A program made the position numbers and the translations under genes. A stretch of 64,000 bases of DNA from Diphasiastrum complanatum (lineage: Eukaryota; Streptophyta; Lycopodiopsida; Lycopodiales; Lycopodiaceae), in the NCBI GenBank assembly GCA_029204225.1, contig CM055112.1:28980703-29044702 (forward strand), in the 5' to 3' direction. The notes beneath the pieces were generated by a model that saw nothing but the letters and a program-made list of their open reading frames with translations, did no database searches and had not been told where the DNA came from. Below, piece by piece: positions 15,997 through 56,001 of the stretch (its first letter is position 1; each line of letters starts with the position of its first letter).

Positions 15997-17791
15997 TGAA
16001 ATGCCAATGCAGGTTTAAATCAACGTTGACTCACTTCAGCAATGTAATCGCGGAGTGCTACAAGACACAATACTCAACACAAACACTACAAAATTGCAAA
16101 GGAATAGTACATATAGAACACAAACAGTACAAAACTACAAATGAATACTATAAATTTGACACAAACACTACAAAATGGGAAGAAAATAAAAGTATTTTGT
16201 GGAGACTTATACGGATCAATACTAGGATCTGATCAAGAAATGGTGTGGAAAATGCAACACGAGTGAGATTTTGGGCATTCACTAGTCGGTGCTAGAATTT
16301 GGTCTAGGGATGAATCTTGGCTAGAATCAGCATGCTCAAAGCTCCAGAGAAAAGATGATGATGGAGATAAAATTCTAACTATGCATTGAGATATCTATCC
16401 ACTAAGAGAGCGAGAGATATACACTAGCAAGAGGGAGGGGGTTTATATAAAAATGGGCCATACTTCAGCCAATTTCTTCTTCTTTTTTTCAACTTCGAAG
16501 GCTCACATTCCTTTCAAAAATAAGAATACCATCTTCCAATAGCATTACACTTGACATGACAGTTCATCTTTTGACTTTCAAAAACATTTAAAAATAATGA
16601 TCTAGATAATATAGACAATCCAATTTAAAGGGCACATGGTGAAATTTACTATATGTTTGTTTACTTTGAAAGGTAGAGAAAACAATTCAAGGTACTGCAA
16701 CTTGCAAATTCCAGCCCCTATAATAACTATTTCTTGCTTTTCACTAGAAATTTAGATAAATATTTTCAACATTATCTAATAACAAACAAAGGGAAAATTT
16801 GCATTTGTTTACAAAAGCATTGTGGGTAGTTTTGAAATTTGCAAGCTTTCAATCTCATTGGTGATTTTGAGATGCCTTGCTTTTGACGAAAACAAAGCTT
16901 AATACAAAGTTAGCAAATATTAATTAATGTCATTTTGAAAGTCGAGTCATATTGTATTTTAAGGCCTCATCTATATGACGATTGGAGTTACGCTTATGAC
17001 CACAAAGAGAGGATAGAGATTCTAACCTCAAAGAGAGAAATGAAATCCTTAACTACAATTCAATAATTAAATGACAATTTTGGTAGGATGAAAAAACATT
17101 TAAGTAAGATATATCATCTTTTGAAACCCAACCAAATTTGTCATAGAGTGACTAATAATAGAGTAAAACTACAATCAGTAGTTTAGGATGACCAACTTGC
17201 TGTGATATTACATAAATGATTCCATTTTGACTTCTTTTGTCACCAATTAAAGAGATTAGTCTCTTGTATGAACATGATTTTCATATATGAACTTCCATTT
17301 TGAAAATAATGCCAACAAATAGGACATTCATAATAGCATCTCGTGAGTAGAACTATGTACCCCCAAAAAAAAGTACTATTTCAGGTTAATGTAGTCCATG
17401 ACGATGCACAAGCTATCATAGAGTATGAAGATGTTTATGAATTATCACTCGAAGAGGAATATCCTAGCAGAGAACTTTGCACATCAAGTATATAGAATAG
17501 TCTTTTTGCTTAAAAATCGAATTGATGTCTTATGCTTCGGATATATATCATATAATGATGAGTGTCATGTGTGCTAAGTCAGCTAAATAGTTGTTCAACA
17601 GTTTTGACAAAAGTAGACTTTAGACCTTTACTCTACATAACTTTTGGCCATTATTGAACATCTTGTGTAGTTTTATACCTAATGAATAACCATCCTGATT
17701 CTATTACAACACGAGTTGATAGAATGAGGCTAGTGCACTTGAGCACAATAGAGTTGCAAACAAAACAATTGTGAGCATTGCTCGTGACCAT

Positions 17792-18193
17792 CTACGAATC
17801 AGGAGCATATTGGCAGGTGCGTTGTGCATCTTGAAGGAAATTGTTCATCACTTCATTCCCACAAAAGTTGCAGGAATCAAAGTCTCCAGTCCAATCAGCG
17901 TAGCCATCACCACGATCAGTTTGCCAACACTGAAAATTCTCCCACGCATCATTACAACATTTGTGTCTCTTGGCAAGAAGTAGATCATTGCAACTTGACC
18001 AATCATTTAGTTGCCCAACCCATGTAATCATGAATCTTGTTTCATAATTAGAACCACCACCTCTTTCGATGACGGAACAAGAAGCACCAAAGTCGGGATA
18101 GTACTTGCCCGCATGTACAATAGTCAAATTTAAAACAACTAATCCCAATAACAATAATGACAATACTCCATTCATTTTTGCCTCCTTGCTCAT
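17792..18193 (-). CDS. P2: secreted eight-cysteine acidic protein
   Basis: A 133-residue single-exon coding frame. The start at 18,193 is kept in all copies; Met7 is an in-frame alternative. Residues 7-28 form a clear signal peptide (LSLLLLGLVVL, then cleavage expected after VHA), so the mature protein of about 105 residues should be secreted or apoplastic. It has eight cysteines at 39, 68, 79, 80, 89, 108, 111 and 127, including CC and CxxC pairs. It has five tryptophans and is acidic (about 15 Asp/Glu against 8 Lys/Arg). I do not recognise the family: the spacing does not fit the lipid-transfer eight-cysteine motif, which needs CxC, nor GASA or defensins. A TATA box lies about 440 bp upstream and a leader intron is predicted. 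It is 401/402 identical to P5, while flanks differ by 2-4%. Function is unknown; a secreted defence or reproductive peptide is a guess only. Confidence 0.85.
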   Translation of the reverse strand: MSKEAKMNGVLSLLLLGLVVLNLTIVHAGKYYPDFGASCSVIERGGGSNYETRFMITWVGQLNDWSSCNDLLLAKRHKCCNDAWENFQCWQTDRGDGYADWTGDFDSCNFCGNEVMNNFLQDAQRTCQYAPDS

Positions 18194-18254
18194 TGAAATG
18201 CTAATGTAGGTTTAAATCAACGTTGACTCACTGCAGCTATGTAGTCGTGGAGTG

Positions 18255-18398
18255 CTACAAGACACAATACTCAACGCAAACACTAAAAAATTGCAAAGGA
18301 ATAGTACATATAGAACACAAACAGTACAAAACTACAAATGAATACTATAGATTTGACACAAGCACTACAAAATGGGAAGAAAATACAATTATAATTAC
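18255..18398 (-). other. Predicted 5'-UTR intron of P2
   Basis: On the minus strand the leader has a donor CATATAG/GTAATT and an acceptor TTGTGTCTTGTAG/CACTCC, giving a 144-bp T-rich intron between the TATA box and the start codon. The same positions are found at P5 (donor GTCATT). The leader upstream of the intron has its own ATG frames, one beginning MNAQNFTRVAFSTPF and similar in several copies, so translation of the main frame may be tempered by upstream ORFs. No transcript evidence is available. Confidence 0.55.
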
Positions 18399-18630
18399 CT
18401 ATATGGATCGGTAATAGGATCTGATCAAGAAATGGTGTGGAAAATGCAACACGAGTGAAATTTTGGGCATTCATTAGTCGGTGCTAGAATTTGGTCTGGG
18501 GATGCATCTTGGCGAGAATTAGCATGCTCAAAGCTTCAAAGAAAAGATGATGGAGATAAAATTCTAACTATGCACTGAGATATCTATCCACTAAGAGAGC
18601 GAGAGATACCCACAAGCGAGAGGGAGGGAG

Positions 18631-18640
18631 TTTATATAGA
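18631..18640 (-). promoter_or_regulatory. TATA box of P2
   Basis: TCTATATAAA on the minus strand, about 440 bp upstream of the P2 start codon, so transcription would begin near 18,605. The motif and its surroundings are kept at all four same-oriented gene copies (about 16,445, 18,635, 35,573 and 39,098), including the two broken ones. Confidence 0.65.
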
Positions 18641-19608
18641 AAAGGGCCATACTTCAGCCAATTTCTTCTCGTTTTTTCAACCTTGAAGGCTCACATTCCT
18701 TTCAAAAATAAGAATACCATTTTTCAATAGCATTACACTTGACATGACAGTTCATCTTTTGACTTTTAAAAACATTTAAAAATAATGATCTAGATAATAT
18801 AGATAATCCAATTTAAAGGGCACATGGTGAAATTTACTATATGTTTGTTTACTTGGAAAGGTAGAGAAAACAATTCAAGGTACTACTGCAACTTGCAAAC
18901 TCCAGCCCCTATAATAACTATTTCTTGCTTTTCACTAGAAATTTAGATAGATATTATCAACATTATCTAATAACAAACAAAGGGGAAATTTGCATTTGTT
19001 TACAAAATTATTGTGGGTAGTTTTGAAATTTGCAAGCTTTCAATCTCAATGGTGATTTTGAGATGCCTTGCTTTTGAAGAAAACAAAGCTTAATACAAAG
19101 TTACTAAATATTAATTGATGTCATTTTGAAAGTCGAGTCATATTTCAATAATGGTACCTTTTATTGTATCTTATGGCCTCATCTATATGACGATTGGAGT
19201 TGCGCTTATGACCACAAAGAGAGGATAGAGATTCTAACCTCAAAGAGAGATATGAAATCCTAATTCACTAATTGAATGACAATTTTGGTAAAATGAGAAA
19301 ACATTTAAGTAAGATATATCATCTTTGGAAACCCAACCAAGTTTGTCATAGAGTGACAAATGATAGAGTAGAACCACAATCAGTAGCTAAGGATGACCAC
19401 TTGCGATGATATTACACAAATGATTCCATTTTGCCTTCTTTTGTAGCCAAAAAAGAGATAAGTCTTTTGTCTGAACAAAATGTAAAACTTTCTTGACAAA
19501 GAATACAAGCAAAAGAACAACAAAGGGTTGGTTGGCCCATTTAAACTTTTCACCATAGTATCTGAACATAAGAGAATATCCACGACAACCAACGAAAGGT
19601 GAGATTGA

Positions 19609-19774
19609 ATATTTGTGAATGCGCAATTCAAGGTGAAGTTTTGAACCTTGTTAGTTAAACTATTTGTGATATGTAAAGACTTGTGGCAAGACTTTACCAA
19701 AAGCCTGTACCTATCACAAACATTATAACTAACAAGGTGCAAAGGCTCACCATGAATTGCACATTCACAAATAT
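19609..19774. repeat. Long near-perfect hairpin, copy 1
   Basis: A 166-bp imperfect palindrome. An arm of about 82 bp starting ATATTTGTGAATG is followed with almost no loop by its reverse complement (about 80% pairing by eye). Further copies lie at 36,450, 40,068 and 60,805. The 136-residue minus-strand frame over it (19,380-19,790) is best seen as a by-product. It is either a foldback MITE caught in the duplicated module or a hairpin able to give small RNAs. Confidence 0.85.
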
Positions 19775-19794
19775 ACCACGCATCCTTCATTTAG

Positions 19795-20950
19795 ATTCAT
19801 TTGGTTGCTTGGACATGTTATCATGTCATATATTATCTTGAAAAGTGGGTCCCACCCAATCCCTTGTTTTTATACCACTTGGGATCAGAAAAGCATGGGT
19901 CCCACTTGTACCTTCGAACTGATATAAAAATCAAAAGCAAATTTTTTGGTTGAGTCTTTTTTGAACAAGTGTCAACTATGGGTTGGTATATGTTCAAAGC
20001 TCACAGGCTATGCTTCCAAGCATACATGCCATTCAATGCCCTAAAGATGAACCAATAGAATTTGCCTAGATTTTCTTATGAAAGCAACATGTAGTTGATA
20101 GTTTTTTAAAAGAAAGTTGGAAGTCAAGCACATAGAAATTTTGGACATGCAAAGGGAGCTTCTAATATGTGTACGAGTAGTGGGCCTTAGAAGCTCGATG
20201 CTCACTTCTAGTTTGGTCTTTACTCTAGACACTCCTTGCTCTATTGTGTATATTGCCTTTTACCTAATGAATCTTGTTACTTGCCCAATGATTCTTGTGC
20301 AACTAAGGGTTTCTCATCTTTATTTATACTATGTTATTGTCCCACAAATGTGGTTGAGGTAATTTATCAAAATAATATTGAAACTGCTGCTTCATTATCC
20401 AAAAGTTGCAAAATGGTGCCGACAATGGTGACGAAGAAGTGGACATTTAAATAGCTAACATGAATAGAGAGTGGGAATTTGTGGGAGGATGTATCTTTTA
20501 GTAAGAGGCTATTGAATTTCTTATGATTGTGTCCTTTCTCAAAGAGTGTTCAATGGACCCTTTGGGAGAACTATTCTATTGCCAATGGTTTGTGGCCATA
20601 AATGCACCATCATGTCCATTTATTCTAGTCTTTGCATTCAATGGTTGTATCTTGATTACAAATCAAGTTCTCCCGTTAGCAGGGAGGACACATTAGATCC
20701 CTAATGCTTGGGTCCATAAACATGAATTTCATAGAGGATCTTCCTTCTTTAGAATATTGCCAACAAACAGGACATTCATGATAGTTGTTTGAGACTAGAC
20801 CTACATTCAAAAGAAAGAAACAATATTCTTATGGGTTAGTGTAATGTGTGAACATGGAGTGTGAAGATGTGGATGATTGCAAAAATCAAAGAAGAAATTA
20901 TGTATTGGAACACTTTTCATACATAGGAAAGTTGGGGCAAGGGAGTATGG
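19795..20950. repeat. Module Q, copy Q1
   Basis: A non-coding module found at least six times in the window (also about 23.9, 36.6, 40.3 and 50.3 kb, and inverted at 59.3-60.8 kb). It contains short frames kept in several copies (for example minus 20,041-20,232, beginning MSRVKTKLEVSIELL). They have no recognisable domain and persist because the copies are young. Near 20,720-20,780 is a stretch shared with the right ends of the other copies. Confidence 0.8.
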
Positions 20951-22860
20951 AGAACGTGAACAGAGAAGAGATCAGGAATATTTGCGGAACAGCTCTCCCA
21001 CTATAATGGGCTACTAGATGCAAAAACCGTCTAACAGATTGTTTATGCTAAATATAATCACAACTCAAACGTTCTATTGCCCAACAGGATCTTATAAATT
21101 AATTTATACTCAAAAATACAGAATGAGTACAGTCCACCGAAGAGATCAGAAATGGTTTGAGGTATTACTAGATATTAGATTCAATAAAAAGTTCAGTTCT
21201 GAAATACATTGAAAGAGCAGTATGACAGCGCAAGTTTCTCAGTTGTCAAAGACAACCATCTTCTGATCAGAAGTTGAGGGGTCGTAGACATCCGTGTTTT
21301 GATTAGTGTGAGTGAACAAGTGTTATCAAACAGCAATGAAGTGCATCCAAATCACAATAAGCATTCATCTATGTTATACACAAATAGGAAAGCATATTGC
21401 TGCTATATTACACTAAAGCACAACAATGACAGTTACAACCAGTGTGACGGCATAACTGGAAAGCTCAAAATCATTCGTCTCATGGACGGAGCATCACATA
21501 GAGTGTGCCTAGATGATCCATTTATAGATTGCATCCATGTATTAATTACAATAAATGTTTGTCATCTAATTAGGCAAGCCGTTGTACTTGGAAGTATTTG
21601 GCTTGTAATGACAACTATACATTGTGTAATGGTCAACCCACAGGGAATGTTGGCGTGGACAAGGACTCGCAAATTCTCTCACTGAGCATGTCAGGGGAAG
21701 TGGTTTTCTCTCACTTCACATTTTGGGAAGTGGTTGGGAATGTTCCTCATTGAAAATGGAAGGCCTTCGGCATTTTCTCTCTCTTCGGGATTTTGCAAAA
21801 CAGCCAAAGGTAAGTGTCGCATTTTTTTTTGGGAAAGTAAAAAAAATGTGAACTGTGCAACACTTAGTGTATTTCTATAGACTTATTCTAAATGCTAGTT
21901 TGTGGAATTCCTTGAAGATGGCCAAGTCTTCAATGAATTCAAATTATTGAACTTAACATCTGAACTTGAACTTATGATAGGATTGGTTATGTTTTGCTAG
22001 AGATCAGCCAGAAGCCCACTTGTAGACGTTCTTCGAATAGTTTGGCTGTCTAAGTTATGATTCCTGCAGATATCAGATGAGCAGACTTTGAATCCAAAAT
22101 AGGTTTCACCTGACCCTAGATCAAAGATCAATAAACGTGCAGGAAGAATCTTGAAATAGAAGAAATTAGTCATTCACCAAGGAGGCAACTGTGGGCTTAA
22201 TTTCCAACAGTCCGTACTAAGATCTCCTTGGTTGCAAGATTCTTTTTCGTACATGGTCTTGAGATATTGATGACTTCAATCTATTACGACAATATTTGAA
22301 GCTCGTCTATCAAGGGAGCTATATGTACATCCTTATTTTTGGCGTTGTATTATTTTGGTATCAGAAAGTCAAACATGACATGAGCCTTCTTGATGCTTAG
22401 CCAAGGTGCATTGTTTTTGAACAAGTGTCAACTACAATATTTGAAGCTCCTCTATCAAGGGAGCTATATGTACATCCATATTTTTTTTCATTATATTAGT
22501 TTTGGTATCAAAAATTCAAGATGAGATGTGCCTTCTTTATACTGAGTTAAGGTGGAATGTTAAATTCCATTAAAATCACTCACCATGTAGGGCATGATGT
22601 GGACCACAATGCAAATGGATTCACACGATCCATCACCAATCAAAGATGCTAATGTCAAGGCTACTCATGTTTAAACTTAGGCCATGAATCATCTATATGG
22701 TTCATGCTTGACAATTGGGAGGCATTCTCATGGTAGCATTTGTTGAATGTTTGGTCGAGTGTCATTTCATAAGCTATAATCAAGTATACTTGAAGATATT
22801 GCTTACAGAGCACCAAAATGGACAACACTCTAGCGATTGGAAACAAACCTCTCAACCAAA
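20951..22860. repeat. Module R, copy R1 (matches 41,380-43,335)
   Basis: About 1.9 kb repeated in unit B at about 3-4% divergence. A 128-codon plus-strand frame (21,299-21,685) is open in both copies, but by eye the copies differ by 10 replacement and 5 silent changes, which does not show protein selection. A good splice-donor motif (AAAG/GTAAGTG, about 21,808) hints at former exon sequence. The module ends with a tandem repeat of about 145 bp. Confidence 0.7.
22289..22570. repeat. About 145-bp tandem duplication inside module R
   Basis: Two adjacent copies begin ACAATATTTGAAGCTC and share the stretch up to the TTTTGGTATCA motif. The same pair is present at 42,760-43,030 and, partly shortened, at 57,970-58,220, so this small duplication predates duplication of the large unit. 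Confidence 0.8.
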
Positions 22861-22894
22861 TAGAAACTAGAAATCAATACGCAGTTCATTTGTT

Positions 22895-23720
22895 GGCTTG
22901 GACATGTTATCATATCATATATTAACTTGAAAATTGGGGCCCAACCAGCCCCTTCCTTCTATATTAATATGGTTCAAAAATTGCTAGGCCTGACTCTTGT
23001 GGCTTTCACTCGATGTAAAAAATATACGCAAATCTTTTGGTTGAGTGTTTGTAGCTATGGGGTGGTTAATGTTCAAAGCACATGGGCTATGCTCTGAAGC
23101 GTCCATGCCTTATAATGCTTCGAAAAATGAACTAATAGATAGTTGATAGTTACTTAATAAAACTATTCGAGGGTAGTCATGTAGACTTTTTGGACATCCA
23201 AAGGTAGGTTCTTATATGTATATGGGTAGTGGAGGACCTAAGAAGCTTGATGCTCACTTCTCGTATGGTTGTTACTCTAGAGACTCCTATGTATGTGTTT
23301 ATTCTAATATCGTGTTTTACTTATTGAATTGTGCTACTTTCCCAATGATTCTTGCAGAATTGAGACTGTTTCTTTTATGGATGTCTAATACGTTATAGGC
23401 CCACACACATCGTTGAGGTTATTTATCAAAAAGAATTCACAATGCTGCTTGACTCTCTAAAAGTCGCAACATGTTGTGCACCATGGTGATGAAGAGAGAT
23501 TAGACATGTACACAATTCAGATAGCTTACATAAACAAAGAGTGAGAATTTGTGAGAGGATGTGATTGTTATTTGGGAGGCTATTATCTTCTTTACAATGG
23601 TCTCCTTTCTTATGGAGAGGGTCCATGGACTTGGGAGGATGACTCTATTGCTAAAGGTTGGTTGCCATAAATCCACCATTATGTTCATGTCCTTTAGTCT
23701 TGGCATGCAACTTTTGTATT
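22895..23720. repeat. Diverged relative of module Q (Q0), with empty site
   Basis: It follows the order of module Q (GGACATGTTATCAT start, the GGGCTATGCT stretch, the AAGCTTGATGCTCACTTCT stretch) but is clearly more diverged than Q1-Q5, so it reflects an older round of duplication. At 23,146-23,208 it preserves the target region occupied in unit B by the copia element at 43.6-49.6 kb. Confidence 0.65.
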
Positions 23721-23879
23721 TCTAGCACCAAATCAGGTGCTCCCAAATTGCACTCTGTACAGTCACCATCAAAATGTGCATTGGATCTAGTAGATCTTTT
23801 ATCAGAAATCGATTTGAATTAGAAAGATCATGAAACATGGGACAATGTTTTCATACCAAGTGCAAGTTGCTCTAGATCA

Positions 23880-24651
23880 TTGGATCCTTAAGTTTGAAGC
23901 AAATCACACAGGCCCAACCCTTGTACCTTCGAACTGATGTAAAAATCCAGGCAAAAATTTTGGTTGAGTCTTTTTTGGACAAGTGTCAACTATGGGTTGG
24001 TATATGTTCAAAGCACATGGGCTATGCTTCCAAGCATGCATTCCATTCAATGCCCTAAAGATGGACCAATAGAATTTGGCTAGATTTTCTTATGAAAGCA
24101 ACGGGTAGTTGATAGTTTTTGAAAAGAATGTTCGAAGTCAAACACATAGAAATTTTGGACATGCAAAGGGAGCTCCTAATATGTGTATGCGTAGTGGACC
24201 TTAGAAGCTCGATGCTCACTTCTAGTTTGGTCTTTACTCTAGACACTCCTCACTCTATTGTGTATGTGTTAATTTTGAATATTGTCTTTTCCTGATGAAT
24301 CTTGTTAATTGCTCAATGATTCTTGTGCAACTGAGGGTTTCTCATCTTATTATACTATGCTATTGTCCCACAAATGTGATTGAGGCAATTTATCAAATTA
24401 ATATTGAAATTGCTACTTCACTATCCAAAATTTGCAAAATGGTGCCGACAATGGTGATGAAGAGTGTGGACATGTACACGAGTTAAATAGCTAACATGAA
24501 TAGAGACTTGGAATTTGTATCTTTAAGTAAGAGGCTATTGAATTTCTTATGATTGTGTCCTTTCTCAAGGAGAGTGTCCATGGACCCTTTAAGAGAACTA
24601 TTCTATTGCCAATGGTTTGTGGCCATAAATGCACCATCATATCCATTCATT
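23880..24651. repeat. Module Q, copy Q2 (left part)
   Basis: Same module as Q1. Its right part continues at about 26,857-27,078, after the 2.2-kb repeat that sits inside it. The unit-B counterpart is 50,262-51,010. Confidence 0.75.
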
Positions 24652-26848
24652 ATACCCTAAGATCCTACTTACAAGACAAAACACAATGGAAAACACATTG
24701 TGGAGCAACCACCCAACCAAGTAGAAGCAACCAATCAACTCTAGAAGCTTCACCCCCAAGCCAAGGAATAAGAATCATGAAGGTAGAGTGAAATCCTGGC
24801 AATGAATCAATGACCACAATGAGGAGTAGGGCGAGTTTGGCCTCAATATATAGAGCCAAAAACAAACTGGGCACATAGCCATGCATATTGGAAAACGAAT
24901 CATAATGAATCCAAGAATAATAACTGAATTGAATTTCAGCAGGACTTTGGGTATCTAGATGTGATTCTGGATTGTAATCTAAAGTTTTTGTAGTTGAAGA
25001 TTATTGTCATTATCATTTTGGTATGCTTTATGTCTTTAATTACCAATGGTATATAGAACTTAGAAATCTAGCACTTCTGTTAGAGAATTCTGTTTGGGGA
25101 TGTTCCTAAAATCTAGTATTTTCCTGTTGGGAAAGATTTTTTTTGGAGTGATTCTTACTTTTCCTGAGTTATGTTGGACATATACTCTAGTATCCTGTAA
25201 ATGACTAACTATGATTTTTGATTCCAGGAAATTATGATTGATAAATCATATGAATCTAAATATTTATGGTTGTTGGCGGATCATAAATAGATACTTATTT
25301 GTTATCAGAGGATTATAAGGAATTGTGATGATTCCTAAGTATGATGGATTATTTGAGTGAGAATTTAAATTAGTGTTTTGAGTCTCTCTACTCCAGTATT
25401 ATTGAGAACCTATGGATCACAAGATAAGTATTATATTCGTGGAGAATTTAATTTATCTAGTGGATGTTATTCTGCTACAGTTTATGGTCTGTAGATGCTT
25501 GAGTACAGTTCTTCATTTGATTGGATCTCCAATTATCATAGGAGACAGACACGTTTATTAAGATGAATTAATGCTATTTTCTTGTATTTGGTGCTAGAAA
25601 CAGGAGCATTTAACTCAAAAGAGTATGGGATACTCAGAGTTGAGTTTTATTCATTCTATATCTTTATGATTCTCCTAGAGATTCTAATTGAATGAATTAT
25701 CATATCTTGGAATTTGGATTATAAGGATATTTGTACTTGAAAGCTTATGAATTATCTGTCAGAGTTGTGGATAATTTTAGACTGTAATTATAATTATTTT
25801 ATTATTTCTTTAACTTTAGTCTCCTAAGTTAGGTTATTTCACCTAGTGTTTCATGTAAGTGTTTTATAGTCGAATGCAACCCAGATGGAAAATTTATCGC
25901 TTAGTGTACTTTTCAAACTTGAGTTGTACTCCAATGCAGAAATTATCACTTGGAAAATAGGATTATCTTTGAGTACTTGTTTGATGTGAAAGCTAGACTA
26001 AGGATAATGATTTTCTAGGTTGATATTGAGAGTTTAAAGAACTGTTCCTATTATTCTTTCCTGTTTAGAGAGCTTCTAAGGATAGAAGCACTGTAAGGAG
26101 GGAAGAATGTTATGTCCATGACTAGTAAGTAGGATTCAGTATACTCCTAGTCTTGGATACACAGTACAAGCTGTTAGTTATGCCACGTCATACTGGATGT
26201 GACCCGAAAGTAACTAATATCCTTGTGAGCCCCAGAACACACTAAATGGAGATTACACAAGGTATGAGACAGTGTATGCATGTGTAGAGTTATCAATAGC
26301 AATTCTATGAATAGTTGGTCCATGCTTAGGACTCTATTCTAGGTGAATCTATGTGTAGGGGAGCGCTCTGGGATACAATCACAAATGATTTGAGTCTATT
26401 CCTTAACTAAGGAATACTCTATCCCAACAATATTGTATATCCAATGCACATAATTTTAACTGATGAACCCAAATGATTCACTAATCATGCGTCTTACAAG
26501 CTATATAGCTCAAAACCATCAATTTTTGGTGAAACCACATCACACTGATCATTTTACCAATTAACTTCAACCTGGAGTAATCAATTACTCAAGTTAATTG
26601 CCAATGATTTAGAAATCTCAAATGTCTAGGTGCAGATCTTAATTATACTAGCATAACATCCCATTTAGATCCTTATCCAAACCATTTACTAGTTAATCCA
26701 TAAATCTTCTATACATATATTTGTTAACTCTACAAGTATCTGTCAAAACAATACTTGATCATATGCTTATGTTCGCCGACTAGGTTAAGTGCACCAGATA
26801 ACCTTAGTAACTAGGATTACACAATAGATTCATTCAAGATTAATCGTG
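24652..26848. mobile_element. Unidentified 2.2-kb repeat, possibly LTR-derived
   Basis: This segment replaces about 80 bp of module Q relative to Q1 and Q4, and is matched in unit B by 51,010-57,735 (there split by a copia insertion). No gag, pol or transposase motif is readable. At 26,095-26,108 a purine run (AAGGAGGGAAGAA) stands directly before TGTTATGTCC, the arrangement of a polypurine tract and LTR start, which would make about 26,108-26,848 a 3' LTR. No left LTR is seen. The uninterrupted target of the unit-B copia element lies at 25,109-25,113. Confidence 0.45.
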
Positions 26849-27353
26849 CTAGATCCCTAACCCCTAAGTCCATCAACATGAATTTCATAGAGGATCTTCC
26901 TTCTTTAAAATACTGCCAACAAATAGGACATTCATGATAGTTGCTTGTGACTAGACCTTCATTCGAAAGAAAGAAACAATACTCTTATGGGTTAGTGTAA
27001 TATGTGAAGATGCAAAAGTTATCATGGAGTGTGAAGATGTGCACGAATGACAAAATCAAAGAAGAAATTATGTACTCTTCATACATAGGAAAGTTGGGCA
27101 TAAGGTCGTCTGTACAACCCTTTGCCGTTCGGAACAGCAACCCCTTTACCCTTTTCGCCACCTAAAGCTTGCCCTTGTCTCTCCCATTTTGTAGTGTTTG
27201 TGTCAAATCTATAGTATTCCTTTGTAGTTTTGTACTGTTTGCGTTCTATATGTACTATTCCTTTGCAATTTTTTAGTGTTTGTGTTGAGTATTGTGTCTT
27301 GACTACAGAGCCGAAGTGAGTTAACATTGATTTAAACCTACATTGAAATTTCA

Positions 27354-27754
27354 ATGAGCAAGGAGGAAAAAATGAATGGAGTATTGTCATTATTGTTATT
27401 GGCATTAGTTATTGTAAATTTGGCTATTGTATATGTGAGCGAGTACTATCTCAGCTTCGGTGCTTCTTGTTCCGTCATCCAAAGAGGTGGTGGTTCTAAT
27501 CATGAAACAAGATTTTAAGATTACATGGGTTGGGCATCTAAATGACTGGTCAACTTGTAGTGATCTACTTCTTTTCAAGAGACACAAATATTGTAATGAT
27601 GCATGGGAAAATTTTCTGTGTTGGCAAACTGACCGTGGTGATGGCTACGTTGATTCACTAGAGACTTTTATTCTTGCAACTTCTATGGGAATGAAGTGAT
27701 GAACAATTTCCTTTGAGATGTACATACATTTGTCAATATGCTCTTGATTCGTAG
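27354..27754 (+). pseudogene. P3: inverted, broken copy of the cysteine-rich gene
   Basis: The opposite orientation to the other four copies. The start (MSKEEKMNGVLSLLLL), the signal peptide and the first cysteine are readable, then the frame shifts about 56 codons in; the second half keeps the CND, CCW-like and stop regions in decayed form. It does not share the 10-base deletion of P1 and P4, so it is a separate lineage. Its leader is cut within the predicted intron and joined at about 27,105-27,178 to a short GC-richer stretch matching nothing else in the window. It sits exactly at the boundary between units A and B. Confidence 0.85.
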
Positions 27755-29033
27755 ATGCTCATGAGCAATGCTCTCAATTTTTTTGTTTTCAACTCTATTA
27801 TGCTTAAGTGCACAGTCTCATTCTATCAATTTGTGTTGTAATAGAATCAGGAGGGTTATTCATCAGGTATAAAACTACATATGATGTTCAATATTGGCCA
27901 AAAGTTATGTATATAAAGTTCTAAAGTCTACTTTCATGAAATTTGTCAAACAACTATTTAGCCGACTTAGCATACATGACAATTATTATTATATGATATA
28001 TATCTTTTTGTTTTATAAAAATTTATATAGAATTTTTTTAGTCTATTTGTTTTATTTTTGCAATTTTTAATATTTCTTTTCTAAAATATTTTTCAAATGA
28101 ATTAAAAATAGATATATCTTATAACATTTTTTTGGACAACTTTTTTCTATGTTGTGATATTCTTTTTTGTAAGTTTTTTGTTTGTCCTATATAGATTCTA
28201 TCATTTATTAGACATTCTATCTTGTATGTAGGTATTTTTTTTCATGTTCACTGTCTTTTTTTTTTTTTTGAACTTGTTGCAAAAAAACATGGTCATAATC
28301 AGTAAATGTCTATAAAAAATATTGTTTTAAATATTATATATCTAAACCATTATATTAATTATGATTACCTTTATTGTTCTTATTTTTTATGTTGATGTTG
28401 ATGCTTAGTTAATTTTTTCGTCAATAAATATTAAAATTTGTTTATTAAAACTAAATTAGTCTTTTATAATTGTATATTATATGAATTAATAGCATATAAA
28501 AGGTTTATTTGTAGTTTACCAATTTATTTTTCTCAATTGGTGACTTTTTTTTTTTGAATTGATTTTTCTTCTTGATTCATCACCTTCATTGTTGATTTGG
28601 TGATTGGTCCTTTCGTAATCCGCTCTCTAGATTATGAAAGATCTCCTAGTTGTTTTGCAAGACCTGTACAAATTGAATCCGTTTCAAACCTTGTCAAATC
28701 TTTCCAATCTTGTATTGGAATATTATATCCATAATATAAGTTTCGTATTATATAATAATATTTATTTATGTGTGATTTCAAATATTTTGTTGATGTTCTA
28801 TTTGTATTGGAAGTCTTTGAAATTTGTTTGTCGAATTCTTTCGAAAGGTCTTTTACAAATCTTGTAGCAATATATTATTTAAAAGAATTATGATTTTATT
28901 GACTATTTTATATCGATATATATTTATTTTAATTCTATTTTTTATATGAAAATAATATATAGATAATTTTATCTTCAATCGGACTATCATTATATTCTTT
29001 CTCAAATTTTTTCTTTTTTGATTTGTGATCATT

Positions 29034-30730
29034 GAATTCTTTATTGTTTTCAAATCCATTTCCATAACTTGAAGAATCAACTCCACAAATATTTAGTAGA
29101 AACATTTGTTTTGTTGTTGGAAATACTGTTTTCATTTTTATCACTTTGGTCGAAATTATTTTTTCTTTTAATTTTTGAAACAGTTGTGATTGTAGAACAA
29201 ATATTAGAATCTAAATATAAAGATAATATATATGTAATTGTTTATTTTATATTATGTCAATATTAATAAAAATAATTATCATTATAATTATTAGTTGGAT
29301 TTATAAATTTTCATAATAAATTTATCTCAATTATGTAATTAGAGTCTTTAGAAATATCCATGTGTTTTGTTTGTTGTTTTTTGTAAAAACATTTTTTATC
29401 ATATGGTAGATGTTAATTTTAGAGTAATTTCATTTGGATGTACATACATCATTCAAGTATCAAGGATTGCACAACAATTAGATTGATCAAGATCTAAACA
29501 CTTTATGTATGTTGATCTAGATTGATAATTGTCTTTAACCACCATAAGTAATTTATCATCTAATGATCCTCATGGCTTCTCACACGTATGAAAAGTACAT
29601 AATTTTTAACAAGTTCAAATTAATTAGATACACAAAATTTTGCATACATGAAGTATTGAGATTGTCAAAAATAATTTTTTTTTTGTTTAATCTCAAAAGT
29701 TATGTATAAAATTAGCTCTGAATCCATAGCTATATTGTTCGGACCTATGGTTAGTTTTCAATGGTGAATCAATGGATCTTGAATATATTGACTTAATCTA
29801 TTCTTTTGTACCTATCTATATTGAACTTCTTGATAACTCCTAGATCTTGTATTTTATGTGAATAGTGTAAATTGTTTTGTGTGTGTGTAATTCTTCATTG
29901 TTTTCAAATCCATTTATATAACTTGAAGGATCAACTCCAAAAATATTTAATAAAAACATTTGTATTGTTGTTGGAGATACTGTTTTCATTTTTATCACTT
30001 TGGTCAAAATTGTTTCTTCTTTTAATTTTTGAAACAGTTGTGATTGTAGAATAAATATTAGAATCTAAATATAAAAAATAATATATACGTAATTGTTTAT
30101 TTTATATTATGTCAATGTTAATAAAATGAAAATAATTATAATTATTATTTGGATTTACAAATTTTTATAATAAATTTATCTTAATTATGTAATTAGAGTC
30201 TTTAGAAATATCCATGTGTTTTGTTTGTTGTTTTTTGTAGAAACATTTTTTATCATATGTTAGATGTTAAAATCAAAGTATGTAAATCTCATTTAGATGT
30301 ACATACATCATTCAACTATCAAGGATTGCACAATAATTAGATTGATCAATATCTAAACACTTTATATATCTTGATCTAGATTGATAATTGTCTTTAAACA
30401 CTACAAATAATTTATCATTTAATGATCCTCATGGCTTCTCACACATATGAAAAGTACATAACTTTTAGCAAGTTCAAATCAACTCATTAGACACACAAAA
30501 TTTTACATACATGAAGTATTAAAATTGTCAAAAATAACTTTTTTTCTTGTTTTATCTCAAAAGTTATGTATAAAATTAGCTTGGAATCCAAAACTATATT
30601 GCTCGGATCTAAGGTTAGTTTCCAATAGTCAATCAATAGATCTTGAATATATTGACTTAGTCTATTCTTTTGCACCTATCCGCATTGAACTTCTTGATAA
30701 CTCCTAGATTTTGTATAGAATAGTGTAAAT
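29034..30730. repeat. Direct tandem repeat, about 856 bp x 2
   Basis: The stretch beginning ATTGTTTTCAAATCCATTT at about 29,043 recurs at about 29,899 and stays similar to the AATAGTGTAAATTG ends near 29,870 and 30,735. Both copies are AT-rich and non-coding as far as can be read. Unit A has only one shortened copy (12,710-13,010). Confidence 0.8.
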
Positions 30731-30912
30731 TGTGTACACAAGTGGGTCTCACACATGTGAGGCCATGATGCCAATTGAGAAACCAATCCTAGATTAGGTT
30801 AGGTAAAGTCTATAGGGTTGGTCATGTCATTTTGGTAGTGATTCTTAGATTATAGGACCTACACCTAAGTTTAAGGTGAAAATTTGACCAACTAGTCACC
30901 TACCAGGCATGA
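30716..30912 (-). mobile_element. LTR fragment of the 51.5-56.0 kb copia family
   Basis: The reverse complement of this stretch matches the last 200 or so bases of the LTRs at 51,473-52,173 and 55,296-55,996 (shared GTGTACACAATTTACACTAT and CACCTTAAACTTAGGTGTAG), but with more divergence. It is an old, partial LTR lying inside the Helitron. Confidence 0.75.
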
Positions 30913-31075
30913 CTCTAGGGCAGACAAATTTATATGTCATATATTTTATTAAGAATGTTTTTCCACTACCTGGTGTTCTAGAAATAGTAAAAATTCATGT
31001 TTTATTTTCTAAAAGTATATTATATATATTTGTTTGTTCGTGATTTAAAGTTGAATTTGCTAGATTTTGAAACTC

Positions 31076-31348
31076 ATAATAGACACTATATTTTGCTTCT
31101 CATACATGTGGCGCTTCATCGATCCATAATGCCATATGTACATGATCGTGAGGAATGCTGAAGCAATAGCTATTGGTACCCAGCCACCGGAATCCACCTT
31201 GAATAACACAGATGAGAAGTAAACTAGCTCCATGGTTCCGAATACGGCCAGAAATAAGAGCAAAAAGATAAAGTTGCTCTACCAGACAATGAGCATGATT
31301 ATAGCCATGAGGATCATTGTCACTAGCATAACAGCAATAACAGCGATG
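31076..31348 (-). pseudogene. HAK/KUP/KT potassium transporter exon inside Helitron
   Basis: One continuous minus-strand frame reads IAVIAVMLVTMILMAIIMLI, then a TAG at 31,279-31,281 right after VW, then LAVFGTMELVYFSSVLFKVD, GGWVPIAIASAFLTIMYIWH and YGSMKRHMYEKQNIVSI. This is the hydrophobic core ending in the FGT(I/M)E, GGWVP and MYxWHYG signatures of plant HAK/KUP/KT potassium permeases. It corresponds to one internal exon: an AG acceptor after a T-rich tract stands at 31,349-31,350, where exon starts at GIAV are known in this family, and about 140 bp of flanking, intron-like DNA continues to about 31,488. The in-frame stop and single exon mean no transporter is made. Unit A's Helitron is uninterrupted at this place. 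Confidence 0.88.
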
Positions 31349-34300
31349 CTTGAAAAAACAAGGACATGCAACGGAAGACTTCAGAATAGAGATTCTACCA
31401 GTATACTAGGTTTAAGATTATGTCTACACAGCAATCCTTGTTGCTCAGTAACATTCAACGAATTGGAAATGCTAAGTACTGCTTTAGTCAAGTTCTAGGA
31501 TTCTTATCATATTATTTGATAATACTATAGGTGTGTTATCTTGTTCATTATTTGTATTCATTGTTAGAATTTCGTTTGTCAATATTTTTTTTTGTAGTAA
31601 TACGTTAATTATTTGTTGTCTTTGTTCATTTTCAATAAATTGTCTATTCGCATATTCTTGTATATAAAAATTAATGTCTTCTTTCGAGTTAACAAGATTT
31701 TTTAGTATGCATTCAAAAAAATATGTATTTTCTTTGTTTTCGTTAGATATCAAATCTTTCTCTAATCTAAAATGTATGTTTTTAAGTAATACATTAAAAA
31801 AAAAAAAACCTTCTTACTAATTGATCTGTTTCATATGTGTAATTACCTAGTTGATCTATAAAATTATATTTTCTTTTCTTTTCTTCTGTTTTTACTATGT
31901 TATATTTGCACCAATACTTATAAAATGTCATTTGTTCAGTTGCTATTGATCGATATATATATATATTTGTTGATTGGATGTAATAATATAAAATCATTAT
32001 AATCTATAAAAAAATTTCTGAAATTAGGTGGATAAAATGGACTGCTTCACTACGTTTTATAATCAATATTTGCAAGCATGTAAAAGTAACTTCTTCTAAG
32101 CATATTGGTTTAGTTAATATGGAAGCAGTTATTAGTTTTAACATATTTTGATTTACATGATCTAATTTTAGTCGTTTTGTATCATTGATATCTAGATTTA
32201 TGTGTCCTATAGGTTTCGATTTCATGGCATATTTTAGTATATAATATGACCAATTCGTACTAGTTATTCTTTGTAGATTCATGTGTGCTTTCCACAACAT
32301 TAATATTGTTGGATGGTATGATACTATATTACGATCTTTATATCTTGGACGAAAATATGTCCAACATTATCAATATCATCCAAGTATGTTTAGTAGTATT
32401 TAGTTTTGAAAAACTTAAAGGAGATTACAACAATTAGAAACAATCACATTCAATACTTATAATCATCACTCATGTAATCCATTAACCACTGAAATAGGCT
32501 CACAACAAATAAATCAGACATGAAGAATAAGACACAGCATAGTCGTTACAATCTTCTCCACTCTTCTCATTATGAATGAATAAGACAATGAATACAAAAC
32601 TATTTATAGGGGTATCATACATGACATTTAGGTCTGTTACCATTATTAAATATTGTGAACACACAATACTCGACAAATAACAATTCAAAGTAATTGTACA
32701 ACAATATAAACTTGACATTAATATTTTACTATTTAGATGGTGAAAAGGAAAATTCATATTTACATTTTTTTTAATTTAATTTTTGGTAATTTGTAAGCAC
32801 AAGAAACTCTACAGGAATGGACTTATTTTCATTGTACTAAATTAAGTCATTTTTTTTATTTTTTTCTCATTAGGTTCGATAAATTGTTTAATTTGTCGAT
32901 CAAATTTAACTGGTACATAAGCAACTATTTTGCTTGATATCTTATTGACATCTTCATTATTTATCCATAACATTATGTGTGCATGTACTGAATCTCGATT
33001 TTGAAATTCATAACATACAACATCATAATGTTGCACTCTTCCAAGTATTGCCTTGGGTGATAAGATATCTTTTTTCATAAAGATTCTTAATCTTGATACA
33101 AATATATTTGAACATTCAACAAAACAATTTTTTCGATCATATTTGTTATTTATATTTTTAACGATTTTTTTTATTTCATTGATTTTTAGCCATCGAGTAT
33201 TTGTTATTTCATCTGATGTTAAATTTAAAACAAATGTGGTAAATCCCATTTTTCTAACATCGTCATTTAAGTTTCGACAATGTCATGTTGGAGTACTAAG
33301 AATAGCCAAGGGTATATTTTATTACATTTTTTAATATATCTTGTTCTGTTGCATTTTTATTTTTTGAAAAAAAATCAATAATATCTTTTTTTTAAATTAT
33401 AGTTTTTGTATTTTTTGATATTTAGTATTGCTTGTCGTAATTCATACATAATAATCAAGTATGGAGGATATAGGGTATATACTGAAAAAAAAAAATAAAG
33501 AACTTCCTATTCTCATTTTTATATATTTTATAAAATTTATTTTTGTGTCATAATATCCATGACCAAAGAAAAACAGAAATGAAAAAAAGTCTTATTCTAA
33601 TGTAAGTATATTTTTTAATTCATGATTAGTCGGTACATGTATTGAATTTGTGGATTGAAGTACATGGTTCATTTCATTTTTCAAAATAAGATTTGAATAT
33701 TCAAAAATATAATTTCTATTTAAAGGACGTGTACAATTTGGAGTTACATCTTCTAAAATTACATATGTGTGGATATTTGGATCAGATGTCATTGCTTCAT
33801 AAGATTTTTTATTTTTATCTATAAATTCATTACGAGTATTTTTTTTTAAAATATACATAATTCTTTTTTCGTTTTATCTATTTCATATAGGGTTTTAAAT
33901 TTTCATAAGATTAGATTATGATTTATATTTTGTATGAGTATATCGTCTAAGAATAAAATATCATCATTTTGATAATCATCAAAAACATTAAAAGCAATTG
34001 GATTATCAAACAAAAAAAAAAATTTCAATTATTCCTATAATGAAACAATTCATGTTTTTAGATGTTTTAATTGATATATCTATTAATGACATTGTTTGTA
34101 ATTGAATAGGATGTAAACTTAATAGGGCTTGTATATATTTTGGTGACATAAAAACTGAATATACGATTTTGTTTTTTTCTACATACTTTACATACATATC
34201 AATATACCATAGAAGTTTGTTCATATTTATCGAACATGATTTTCATATATGAACTTCCATTTTGAAAATACTACCAACAAATAGGACATTCATAATAGCA

Positions 34301-34754
34301 TCTTCTGAGTAGAACTATGTACCAAAAAAAACAAATATTGTTTTGGGTTAGTGTAGTCCATGACAATGTTCAAGCTATCATAGACTATGAAGATGATTAT
34401 GAATTATTTCTCAAAGAAGAAATATCCTAGCAGAGGACTTTGCACATCAAGTATATACAGTAGTCTTTTTGCTTAAAAATTGAATTGATGTCTTGTGCTT
34501 TGGATATATATCATATAATAATGATTGTCATGTATGCTAAGTCAACTAAATAGTTGTTCAACAATTTTGACGAAAGTAGACTGTAAAACTTTTCTCTACA
34601 TAACTTTTGGCCAATATTCAACATCTTGTGTAGTTTCATACCTAATGAATCACCATCCTGATTCTATTACAACACAAATTGATAGAATGAGGCTAGTGCA
34701 CTTGAGCACAATAGAGTTGAAAACAAAAAATTTGTGAGCATTGCTCATGACCAT

Positions 34755-35145
34755 CTACGAATCGGTAGCATGTTGGCAGGTGCGTTGTGCATCTCGAAAG
34801 AAATTGTTCATCACTTCATTTCCACAAAAGTTGCAGGAATCAAAGTCACCAATCCAATCAGCGTAGCCATCACCACGGTCAATTTGCCAACACTGAAATT
34901 TTTCCACACATCATTACAACATTTGTGTCTCTTGGAAAGAAGTAGATCATTGCAACTTGACCAGTCATTTAGAAGCCCAACCCATGTAATTATTAATCTT
35001 GTTTCATAATTACAACCACCACTTCTTTCGATGATGGAACAAGAAGCACCGAAGCCGAGATAGTATATACAACAGTCAAATTTAAAACAACTAATGCAAA
35101 TAACAATAATGACAGTACTCCGTTCATTTTTGCCCCCTTTCTCAT
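34755..35145 (-). pseudogene. P4: broken copy of secreted cysteine-rich gene
   Basis: The unit-B counterpart of P1. It shares P1's 10-base deletion after the signal peptide and so is out of frame for the cysteine region. It keeps the 7 bases lost in P1. The TATA motif (about 35,569-35,578) and leader remain. It differs from P1 at about 16 of 385 positions plus indels. Confidence 0.85.
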
Positions 35146-36319
35146 TGAAATGCCAATGTAGGTTTAAATCAACGTTGACTCACTTCAGCAATGTAATCGC
35201 GGAGTGCTACAAGACACAATACTCAACACAAACACTACAAAATTGCAAAGGAATAGTACATATAGAACACAAACAATACAAAACTACAAATGAATACTAT
35301 AAATTTGACAAACACTATAAAATGAGAAGAAAATACAAGTATAATGTGGAGACTTATATGGATCAATACTAGGATCTGATCAAGAAATGGTGTGGAAAAT
35401 GCAACACGAGTGAGATTTTGGGCGTTCACTAGTCGGAGAATCTTGGCTAGAATCAGCATGCTCAAAGCTCCAGAGAAAAGATGATGATGGAGATAAAATT
35501 CTAACTATGCATTGAGATATCTATCCACTAAGAGAGCGAGAGATATACACTAGCAAGAGGGAGGGGGTTTATATAAAAATGGGCATACTTCAGCCAATTT
35601 CTTCTTCTTTTTTTCAACTTCGAAGGCTCACATTCCTTTCAAAAATAAGAATACCATCTTCCAATAGCATTACACTTGACATGACAGTTCATCTTTTGAC
35701 TTTCAAAAACATTTAAAAATAATGATCTAGATAATATAGACAATCCAATTTAAAGGGCACATGGTGAAATTTACTATATGTTTGTTTACTTTGAAAAGTA
35801 GAGAAAACAATTCAAGGTACTGCAACTTGCAAATTCCAGCCCCTATAATAACTATTTCTTGCTTTTCACTAGAAATTTAGATAAATATTTTCAACATTAT
35901 CTAATAACAAACAAAGGGAAAATTTGCATTTGTTTACAAAAGCATTGTGGGTAGTTACTAGATATTATTTGATGTCATTTTGAAAGTCGAGTCATATTGT
36001 ATTTTATGGCCTCATCTATATGACGATTGGAGTTGCGCTTATGACCACAAAGAGAGGATAGAGATTCTAACCTCAAAGAGAGATATGAAATCCTTAACTA
36101 CAATTCAATAATTAAATGACAATTTTGGTAGGATGAAAAAACATTTAAGTAAGATATATCATCATTTGAAACCCAACCAAATTTGTCATAGAGTGACTAA
36201 TGATAGAGTAAAACTACAATCAGTAGTTTAGCATGACCAACTTGCTGTGATTTTACATAAATGATTCCATTTTGACTTCTTTTGTAGCCAATTAAAGAGA
36301 TTAGTCTTTTGTATGAACA

Positions 36320-37727
36320 AAATGTAAAACTTTCTTGACAAGAATATAAGCAAAAGAACAACAAATGGTTGGGTGGCCCATTTTAACTTTTCACTATACT
36401 ATCTGAACATAAGAGAATATCAACGACTACCAAGGAAAGGTGTTGTTGAATATTTGTGAATGTGCAATTCATGGTGAAGCTTTGAACCTTGTTAGTTAAA
36501 CTATTTGTGATATGTAAAGGCTTGTGGCAAGACTTTACCAAAAGCCTATACCTATCACAAACAATATAACTTACAAGGTGCAAAGGCTCACATGAATTGC
36601 ACATTCACAAATATGCCACAAATCCTTCATTTAGGTTCATCTGGTTGCTTGGACATGTTATCATGTCATATATTATCTTGAAAAGTGGGTCCCACCCAAT
36701 CCCTTGTTTTTGTATCACTTGGGCTCAAAAAAGCATGGGCGCAACACTTGTACCTTCGAACTGATGTAAAAATCAAAGGCAAAATTTTTGGTTGAGTCTT
36801 TTTTGGACAAGTGTCAACTATGGGTTGGTATATGTTCAAAGCACGTGGGCTATGCTTCCAAGCAGTCATGCCATTCATTGCCTTAAAGATGAACCAATAG
36901 AATTTGCCTATATTTTCTTATGAAATTAGCAACGGGTAGTTGACAGTTTTTTAAAAGAATGTTCGAAGTCAAACACATAGAAATTTTGGACATGCAAAGG
37001 GAGCTTCTAATATGTGTATGGGTAGTGGACCTTAGAAGCTCGATGCTCACTTGTAGTTTGGTCTTTACTCTAGACAATCCTTGCTCTATTGTGTATGTGT
37101 TAATTTTGAACATTGCTTTTTACCTAATGAATCTTGTTACTTGCTTAATGATTCTTGTGCAACTGAGGGTTTCTCATCTTTATTTATAATACGTTATTGT
37201 CCCACAAATGGGGTTGAGGCAATTTATCAAAATAATATTGAAACTGCTGCTTCATTATCCAAAAGTTGCAAAATGGTGCCGACAATGGTGATGATGAGAG
37301 TGGACATGTACACGAGTTAAATAGCTAACATGAATAGAGAGTGGGAATTTGTGAGAGGATGTATCTTTAAGTAAGAGATTGAATTTCTTATGATTGTGTC
37401 CTTTCTCAAGGAGAGTGTCCATGGACCCTTTGGGAGAACTATTCTATTGCCAATGGTTTGTGGCCATAAATGCACCATCATGTCCATTAATTCTAATCGT
37501 TGCATTCAATTTTTGTAATGCGACAATGTTTTAATACCAAGTGTAAGGTGCTCTAGATCATTGGATCTCTAAGTTTGAAGCCAATCACTTGCCTTGAAAA
37601 TAGGAAGCTCTAAAGCAGATGTATAAGCATAGTATAGAGGTCACTAGAGTTGCAAACTTATTCATCAATAATGCTCCACAATGATAAAACTATGCTAAAA
37701 AACATATACCATACAAGTTTTGTCATA
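36320..37727. repeat. Extra Q-module segment (Q3) between P4 and P5
   Basis: Sequence equivalent to 19,440-20,650 (hairpin plus module Q) lies between P4 and P5. In unit A the corresponding place (about 17,272) is a direct junction. So either A lost about 1.4 kb or B gained it. Nothing coding is recognised. Confidence 0.75.
36450..36614. repeat. Long near-perfect hairpin, copy 2
   Basis: The 165-bp palindrome described at 19,609, with better-matched arms here (both carry GTGAATGTGCAATTCATG), about 88% pairing by eye. Confidence 0.85.
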
Positions 37728-38255
37728 TTTATCGAGCATGATTTTCATATATGAACTTCCATTTTGAAAATAATGCCAACAAATAGGACATTCATAATAG
37801 CATCTCGTGAGTAGAACTATGTACCCCCAAAAAAAAGTACTATTTCGGGTTAGTGTAGTCCATGACGATGCACAAGCTATCATAGAGTATGAAGATGTTT
37901 ATGAATTATTACTCAAAGAGGAATATCCTAGCAGAGAACTTTGCACATCAAGTATATAGAATAGTCTTTTTGCTTAAAAATCGAATTGATGTCTTATGCT
38001 TCGGATATATATCATATAATAATGAGTGTCATGTGTGCTAAGTCAGCTAAATAGTTGTTCAATAGTTTTGACAAAAGTAGACTTTAGACCTTTACTCTAC
38101 ATAGCTTTTGGCCAATATTGAACATCTTGTGTAGTTTTATACCTAATGAATAACCATCCTGATTCTATTACAACACGAGTTGATAGAATGAGGCTAGTGC
38201 ACTTGAGCACAATAGAGTTGCAAACAAAAAAATTGTGAGCATTGCTCGTGACCAT

Positions 38256-38657
38256 CTACGAATCAGGAGCATATTGGCAGGTGCGTTGTGCATCTTGAAG
38301 GAAATTGTTCATCACTTCATTCCCACAAAAGTTGCAGGAATCAAAGTCTCCAGTCCAATCAGCGTAGCCATCACCACGATCAGTTTGCCAACACTGAAAA
38401 TTCTCCCACGCATCATTACAACATTTGTGTCTCTTGGCAAGAAGTAGATCATTGCAACTTGACCAATCATTTAGTTGCCCAACCCATGTAATCATGAATC
38501 TTGTTTCATAATTAGAACCACCACCTCTTTCGATGACGGAACAAGAAGCACCAGAGTCGGGATAGTACTTGCCCGCATGTACAATAGTCAAATTTAAAAC
38601 AACTAATCCCAATAACAATAATGACAATACTCCATTCATTTTTGCCTCCTTGCTCAT
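38256..38657 (-). CDS. P5: secreted eight-cysteine acidic protein
   Basis: The unit-B counterpart of P2: 133 residues, same signal peptide (residues 7-28), same eight cysteines (39, 68, 79, 80, 89, 108, 111, 127). The only difference from P2 is one base, changing Phe35 to Ser just before the first cysteine. No silent change is present. The leader differs at about 16 of 447 positions and the 3' flank at about 9 of 410, so the coding part stands out as unusually conserved. The TATA box is at 39,094-39,103 and the leader intron is predicted at 38,719-38,862 with a weaker donor (GTCATT). The family is unknown to me. Location is expected to be extracellular. Confidence 0.85.
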   Translation of the reverse strand: MSKEAKMNGVLSLLLLGLVVLNLTIVHAGKYYPDSGASCSVIERGGGSNYETRFMITWVGQLNDWSSCNDLLLAKRHKCCNDAWENFQCWQTDRGDGYADWTGDFDSCNFCGNEVMNNFLQDAQRTCQYAPDS

Positions 38658-38718
38658 TGAAATGCCAATGTAGGTTTAAATCAACGTTGACTCACTGCAG
38701 CTATGTAGTCGTGGAGTG

Positions 38719-38862
38719 CTACAAGACACAATACTCAACACAAACATTAAAAAATTGCAAAGGAATAGTACATATAGAACACAAACAGTACAAAACTACA
38801 AATGAATACTATAGATTTGACACAAACACTACAAAATGGGAAGAAAATACAAGTATAATGAC
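38719..38862 (-). other. Predicted 5'-UTR intron of P5
   Basis: Same length (144 bp) and ends as in P2, but the donor reads GTCATT rather than GTAATT, so splicing may be weaker here. Confidence 0.45.
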
Positions 38863-39093
38863 CTATATGGATCGGTACTAGGATCTGATCAAGAAATGGT
38901 GTGAGAAATGCAACACGAGTAAATTTTGGGCATTCACTAGTCGGTGCTAGAATTTGGTCTGGGGATGCATCTTGGCTAGAATCAGCATGCTCAAAGCTTC
39001 AGAGAAAAGATGATGGAGATAAAATTCTAACTATGCATTGAGATATCTATCCACTAAGAGAGCGAGAGATACCCACAAGCGAGAGGGAGGTGG

Positions 39094-39103
39094 TTTATAT
39101 AGA
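39094..39103 (-). promoter_or_regulatory. TATA box of P5
   Basis: TCTATATAAA on the minus strand, about 440 bp upstream of the P5 start codon, at the same spacing as in P2. Confidence 0.65.
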
Positions 39104-40233: not shown

Positions 40234-40253
40234 ACCACGCATCCTTCATTTAG

Positions 40254-55996: not shown

Positions 55997-56001
55997 AAAT
56001 G

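Follow-up and report, generated by a model that had tools for sequence, protein, structure and literature searches.

How do two copies of a small open reading frame (ORF) come to be almost identical, when the DNA around them was duplicated in the same event and has since drifted? The question is raised by a 64,000-nucleotide stretch of Diphasiastrum complanatum DNA (C21:28980703-29044702 of an assembly of 1,744,706,496 bases; the window hereafter), which carries five copies of one gene for a cysteine-rich protein. Two of these, P2 and P5, are open frames; P1, P3, and P4 are broken. P1 and P2 lie in block A of a segmental duplication, P4 and P5 in block B, and P3 between the blocks, with both the P1/P4 and the P2/P5 pairs deriving from that single A/B duplication (Table 1). 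The answer we favor, at a probability of roughly 0.55, is that P2 and P5 would be working copies kept by ordinary purifying selection in a birth-and-death family, perhaps with homogenization between the blocks in addition. What the data show is the contrast of intact with broken copies, selection on the family, old lesions in common, and the retention of cysteines; that the two copies are themselves under selection now we infer, as we do secretion, disulfides, and the most likely role.

Divergence of P2 and P5 relative to their surroundings

Full alignment of the duplicated units reproduced the by-eye counts of the initial annotation: P2 and P5 differ at 1 of 402 bases, at 16 positions in the leader (18194-18640), and at nine in the 3′ flank (17380-17791). 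The sole difference in the coding sequence (CDS), A/G at 18090, exchanges F and S at residue 35, and there are no silent changes. With the flanks combined (25/893), the coding part proved better conserved than its own flanks (p 0.001), and likewise than the broken pair P1/P4 (p 0.0002), which differs at 15/381 positions (15/384 in a five-way alignment; about 16/385 in the initial annotation). Taken as pre-specified within its 5.8 kb unit, the P2 patch has a binomial p of 0.0003; taken as the best among all same-size windows, in a scan with uniform placement, it is marginal (p 0.045). The 414 substitutions in the 14,482 columns of the A/B alignment are overdispersed, with a variance-to-mean ratio of 3.3 for bins of 400 columns, and at most one substitution is found in 315 of the 14,081 402-column windows (1.8% of 13,479 outside P2). 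Such windows fall in three places: P2 itself, the DNA upstream of P1, and 25943-26464. Moreover, P1/P4 mirrors P2/P5, its upstream DNA being frozen and its gene part drifting. The frozen patch is real, yet neither unique nor restricted to coding DNA. The earlier observation that conservation coincides with the coding frame holds as to the low divergence of the CDS but is weakened as evidence by the equally frozen gene-free tracts.

The absence of silent change had been taken to point to gene conversion, strong constraint, or both; conversion does not follow from it. Of the sites in P2, about 79 are silent and 320 non-silent; at 2.4 to 2.9% divergence, 1.9 to 2.3 silent changes are expected, and none would be seen with a probability of 0.10 to 0.15 (0.04 at the P1/P4 rate of 3.9%). 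The informative part of the comparison is the non-silent deficit, with one change observed against 7.8 to 9.1 expected at three background rates (p 0.001 to 0.004), in a Poisson test that takes no account of how the substitutions clump and is weakened by that clumping.

Table 1. Positions of the gene copies, duplicated blocks, and associated features in the window (LTR, long terminal repeat)
Feature	Position	Strand	Remarks
Block A of the segmental duplication	12256..27023	.	
Block B of the segmental duplication	27987..57910	.	Larger mostly through two Copia elements
P2	17792..18193	-	Intact 133-residue cysteine-rich ORF, signal-peptide-like N terminus
P5	38256..38657	-	Intact 133-residue ORF, block-B counterpart of P2
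P1	15615..15996	-	Broken; 10-nt deletion common to P4 and C20 copy L007; 7-nt deletion private
P4	34758..35145	-	Broken, block-B counterpart of P1; 10-nt deletion shared; 1-nt deletion private
P3	27354..27725	+	Third broken copy, opposite strand; two 1-nt deletions common to C20 copy L008; 1-nt insertion private
Tract upstream of P1	16312..16912	.	1/524 aligned columns differ from block B; frozen like the P2 CDS
Tract with no frame open for more than 54 codons	25943..26464	.	2/522 columns differ; frozen like the P2 CDS
Copia element, block B only	51473-55996		LTRs 4.4% apart (31/701)
Second Copia element, block B	43617-49564		LTRs 1.7% apart (8/472)
TATATAA box of P2	18632..18638	-	445 nt upstream of the ATG; motif match only
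TATATAA box of P5	39095..39101	-	444 nt upstream of the ATG; motif match only

Purifying selection across the family

Relatives were found elsewhere in the genome at 92%, 76%, and about 30 to 35% identity. The search returned 22 matches at E values of ≤0.001, several of them pieces of one copy, and the resulting family count is a lower bound. C20a (L003) is intact at 92% identity. C21b (L005), at 76%, is also intact, has Ile at the P2 start position, and so would begin at an inner Met; the small contig L006 differs from it at one base. Six C18-type copies (L015-L020; 149 residues; about 30 to 35% identity) keep all eight cysteines, a C17 relative (L032) has six, and C20b (L004), L007, and L008 are decaying or broken. 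With a C18-type protein as the query, 11 matches were returned at E values of ≤0.01, two of them of a 75% type (C18b). The distant relatives L015-L028 (contigs C18, C792, and C1043) form a set of their own with near-identical copies on C18; the small contigs C792 and C1043 match this set and may be the other haplotype.

Silent, non-silent, and non-coding differences were counted in fourteen copy pairs, and the relatives outside the window place the family under purifying selection. Between P2 and C20a, the proportions of differing silent (pS) and non-silent (pN) sites were 12/80 and 10/319 (ratio 0.21, p 0.0002), and pN fell below non-coding divergence (35/402, p 0.002). P5-C20a gave a ratio of 0.23 (p 0.0005), C20a-C21b of 0.26 (p 2e-9), and P2-C21b of 0.30 (p 5e-7), with pN in the last pair again below non-coding divergence (p 1e-7). 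The dead close pairs P1-P4, P1-L007, P4-L007, and P3-L008 showed pN indistinguishable from non-coding divergence (p 0.70, 1.0, 0.86, and 0.12), and pairs between dead types had pN/pS of 0.75 (P1-P3), 0.59 (L007-L008), and 0.79 (P1-L008; p 0.1 to 0.4 for the three). Constraint, one of the causes proposed in the initial annotation, is therefore supported for the family through its outside relatives; for the P2/P5 pair itself it is not, the signal being weak on its own branch.

Several observations weigh against the favored reading. Between these two (silent 0/80, non-silent 1/319), the comparison of pN with the 431 non-coding columns (9/431) yields only p 0.05. On their common stem, where selection is not visible, 6 non-silent changes accompany 3 silent ones (other choices of outgroup give 5:3 and 5:2; non-coding 10/356), or 7 and 3 when the stem is polarized by pseudogene P3, a count that alone would suggest an absence of constraint; the P1-type stem has 8 and 3, and the P3-type stem 20 and 2. 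The P2-C20a signal stems in large part from the C20a branch, which has 2 non-silent and 7 silent changes. P2-C20b gave pN/pS of 0.65 (p 0.4), and C20a-C20b gave 0.31 (p 0.014), but with pN equal to non-coding divergence (p 1). The C20b branch carries 8 non-silent changes, 1 silent change, and the loss of one cysteine, and this copy looks to be decaying. Ratios of 0.33 to 0.47 (p 0.04 to 0.15) were also found in P1-L007, P4-L007, and P3-L008; pN/pS alone is thus noisy because dead close pairs also fall below 1. Both ORFs stayed open in 8 to 10% of simulations that covered the stem and the daughters, and in 27 to 33% of those with the daughters alone. Finally, five ATGs in P2 and six in P5 stand between the TATA box and the ORF, so the leader would be spliced or translation would be weak.

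Comparison with the C20 array (C20:1680000-1717162, a region that includes 2,500 N) adds some history. This region matches the window at about 93 to 97% in many long stretches, which are rearranged. In the alignment, L007 carries the 10-nt deletion of P1 and P4, and L008 the two 1-nt deletions of P3. Because these lesions are common to both arrays, two gene types were already dead when the C20 and C21 arrays parted. The tree joins P1, P4, and L007 (support 100), P3 and L008 (100), P2 and P5 (99), and C20a and C20b (88), with weak deeper joins (58 and 78). Each array retains one intact type, P2/P5 in C21 and C20a in C20. C20a was considered as the direct counterpart of P2, which neither the tree nor the non-coding distances support: P2-C20a differ at 35/402 positions (8.7%) versus 14/430 for P1-L007 and 21/416 for P3-L008. 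The arrays may have kept different intact paralogues.

Possible alternatives: conversion, relics, and tandem alleles

The strongest contender, which we nevertheless regard as unlikely, is a recent gene conversion between the two blocks that replaced some 435 to 550 bp and included the ORF by coincidence, in which case the frozen patch would owe nothing special to selection. A run test across six pairs, with 181 sites that vary among the four units, speaks in its favor: the longest P2=P5 run (17768-18089) has p 0.013, and a P1=P4 run upstream of the gene is at least as striking (p 0.0017; 0.24 to 0.70 for the other four pairs). Two of the three places with at most one substitution also lie away from the gene. 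Furthermore, the LTRs of the Copia element at 51473-55996 are 4.4% apart versus 2.25% (86/3,822) for its A/B flanks (p 0.0017), a hint that A and B were homogenized after it landed, or that LTRs mutate faster; the excess shrinks when CpG-type changes are left out (p 0.017). Overdispersion, for its part, can have other causes, and selection in the family has been shown independently and can suffice. Specifically, the family ratios of 0.21 to 0.30 predict 3.6 to 5.0 differences between the P2 and P5 CDSs, and one or none would occur with a probability of 0.04 to 0.13, which makes conversion unneeded, though possible.

It is improbable, in turn, that P2 and P5 are relics yet to break and unselected now. 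The stem counts of six to three and the simulated survival of both frames by chance speak for such relics. The non-silent deficit after the duplication is at odds with them, weakened as it is by the clumping of substitutions, and so is selection across the family. Least probable of all is that A and B are two alleles set in tandem by the assembler, P2/P5 divergence being heterozygosity: small contigs do include near-duplicate chromosome copies, such as L006 beside L005, and redundant haplotype contigs may exist (a query matched by the C18 copies at 99% is 98 to 100% identical to C792 and C1043 copies), but the window is without N, P3, located between the blocks, has no match in the window except the other gene copies, and C20 carries the A-P3 junction within a single match of 2,075 columns to 25942-28005, at 95.1% identity.

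The protein, its leader, and its proposed role

The P2 protein has 133 residues and eight cysteines (39, 68, 79, 80, 89, 108, 111, and 127) spaced C-x28-C-x10-CC-x8-C-x18-CxxC-x15-C; its mature part, counted from residue 30, comprises 104 residues with five Trp and a pI (isoelectric point) of 4.35. These computed features agree with the earlier description of an acidic protein with CC and CxxC pairs. By eye, a hydrophobic N-terminal stretch is present in P2, P5, C20a, C21b, C18a, C1043, and C17, and absent from the C18b piece. Judged from this stretch, the P2/P5 protein is probably secreted, and it is probably held by disulfides. One cysteine of the CC pair and C108 are missing together in the C17 relative, which suggests that the two are paired.

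The earlier remark that the protein fits no nameable family stands, as profile searches with eight family proteins gave no credible Pfam match. A Pfam-A scan up to an E value of 10 returned no family for six of the eight (P2, P5, and four relatives), and only Amastin for the other two, which are sister C18-type proteins (E 0.034 and 0.028; 14.5 and 14.7 bits, where the cut-off is 27.2). PHROGs gave no match, the sole NCBIfam match (E 0.18) was dismissed as chance, and a PDB sequence match to VIP receptor 2 (best E 0.02 to 0.04; 26 residues) was rejected as a short C...C...CW coincidence. A single-sequence structure model was poor (mean predicted local distance difference test [pLDDT] score 52.5), and a second one, in which fragments of the broken copies served as additional rows, reached 64.3. 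The low-confidence model shows strand-strand-helix twice with one short helix between, and a fold search with the model of pLDDT ∼64 found no match at E values of ≤0.001 in PDB and BFVD. Among the literature entries listed, none describes this family, although a description may exist.

The eight-cysteine motif of non-specific lipid transfer proteins (nsLTP) has the order C, C, CC, CXC, C, C. P2 resembles these proteins in its eight cysteines with an adjacent CC, its small size, and its probable secretion. It differs in being acidic with five Trp, in having no Pfam match, and in lacking CXC, a lone C and then CxxC following the CC, and membership was therefore rejected. The DUF26 (stress-antifung) motif reads C-X8-C-X2-C; P2 has C80-x8-C89 with no cysteine three residues on, and no Pfam match places it in this family either. 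As far as the outline of that family goes, P2 shares with ginkbilobin-type secreted proteins (PMC6368629) a small size, richness in cysteine, and, in the low-confidence model, strands and helices. The closest parallel in kind is the class of secreted cysteine-rich plant peptide families that evolve by birth and death, to which HyPRP (PMC2216038) and wheat secreted peptides (PMC9532867) appear, in broad outline, to belong: the signal-peptide-like N terminus, conserved cysteines, local duplication, and broken copies are alike, whereas the cysteine spacing of P2 fits no Pfam model.

Upstream, TATATAA also occurs 427 nt before C20a and 580 nt before C21b, and TATAAAA 284 nt before a C18 copy; the C1043 copy has no such TATA motif within 700 nt upstream. 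The leader intron suggested in the initial annotation was not borne out by a splice-pattern scan of 520 nt. GTAATT, a candidate for the intron opening in P2, is GTCATT in P5, and an intron from the GTGAGT found 38 nt before the ATG in both copies would enter the ORF. A bacterial-type promoter scan of the leader was set aside as irrelevant for a plant gene.

By its contents, the window is plant chromosomal DNA, with Copia retrotransposon domains and a K+ transporter fragment (PF02705, E 1.4e-13; 31063-31278, minus strand), and searches of GTDB genomes and IMG/VR as a contamination check gave no close relatives. Three ORFs of the Copia element at 43617-49564 carry gag, integrase, and reverse transcriptase domains. 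Very AT-rich stretches lie inside the duplicated blocks at 12001-14000 and 28001-34000 (guanine-plus-cytosine fraction 0.22 to 0.28 in 2-kb bins); the latter includes the transporter fragment and a Helitron_like_N match (32842-33282, minus strand; E 6e-6 to 7e-6) whose 27 bits fall below the cut-off of 28.9. A near-palindrome of 166 to 192 bp, about 80 to 83% self-complementary, repeats along with the array (19609-19774, 36437-36627, 40068-40233, and 60805-60970) and resembles a small inverted-repeat element. Rfam and tRNA scans gave no matches.

If purifying selection within a birth-and-death family is the correct reading, the gene would be open in one exon and encode a protein, probably secreted, whose mature part has about 104 residues. 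Blocks would duplicate, most nearby copies would break, and intact members would be retained by selection. The frozen look of P2 and P5 would then arise from the purging of non-silent changes, together with the expectation of only about two silent ones since the A/B duplication, and patchy A/B homogenization may add to their identity. The product could act as an acidic apoplastic protein in defense or recognition, by binding rather than by attack on membranes; a membrane-lysing peptide is less likely because the protein is acidic. Among roles, we would place defense first, at slightly less than even odds, and reproduction or recognition next. More tentatively, and with the odds somewhat against it, the family might be one that Pfam lacks, marked by an eight-cysteine pattern of its own and perhaps by a distinct fold as well, and maintained in plant gene arrays where copying between repeats preserves working genes while their sisters decay. 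Given the equally frozen gene-free tracts, a single frozen ORF in duplicated DNA says little about selection unless relatives from elsewhere can be compared. Blocks that carry working as well as dead copies, like A and B, offer a natural contrast that aids in telling constraint from local mutation rate, and the locus points to a probably secreted plant protein family without Pfam coverage.

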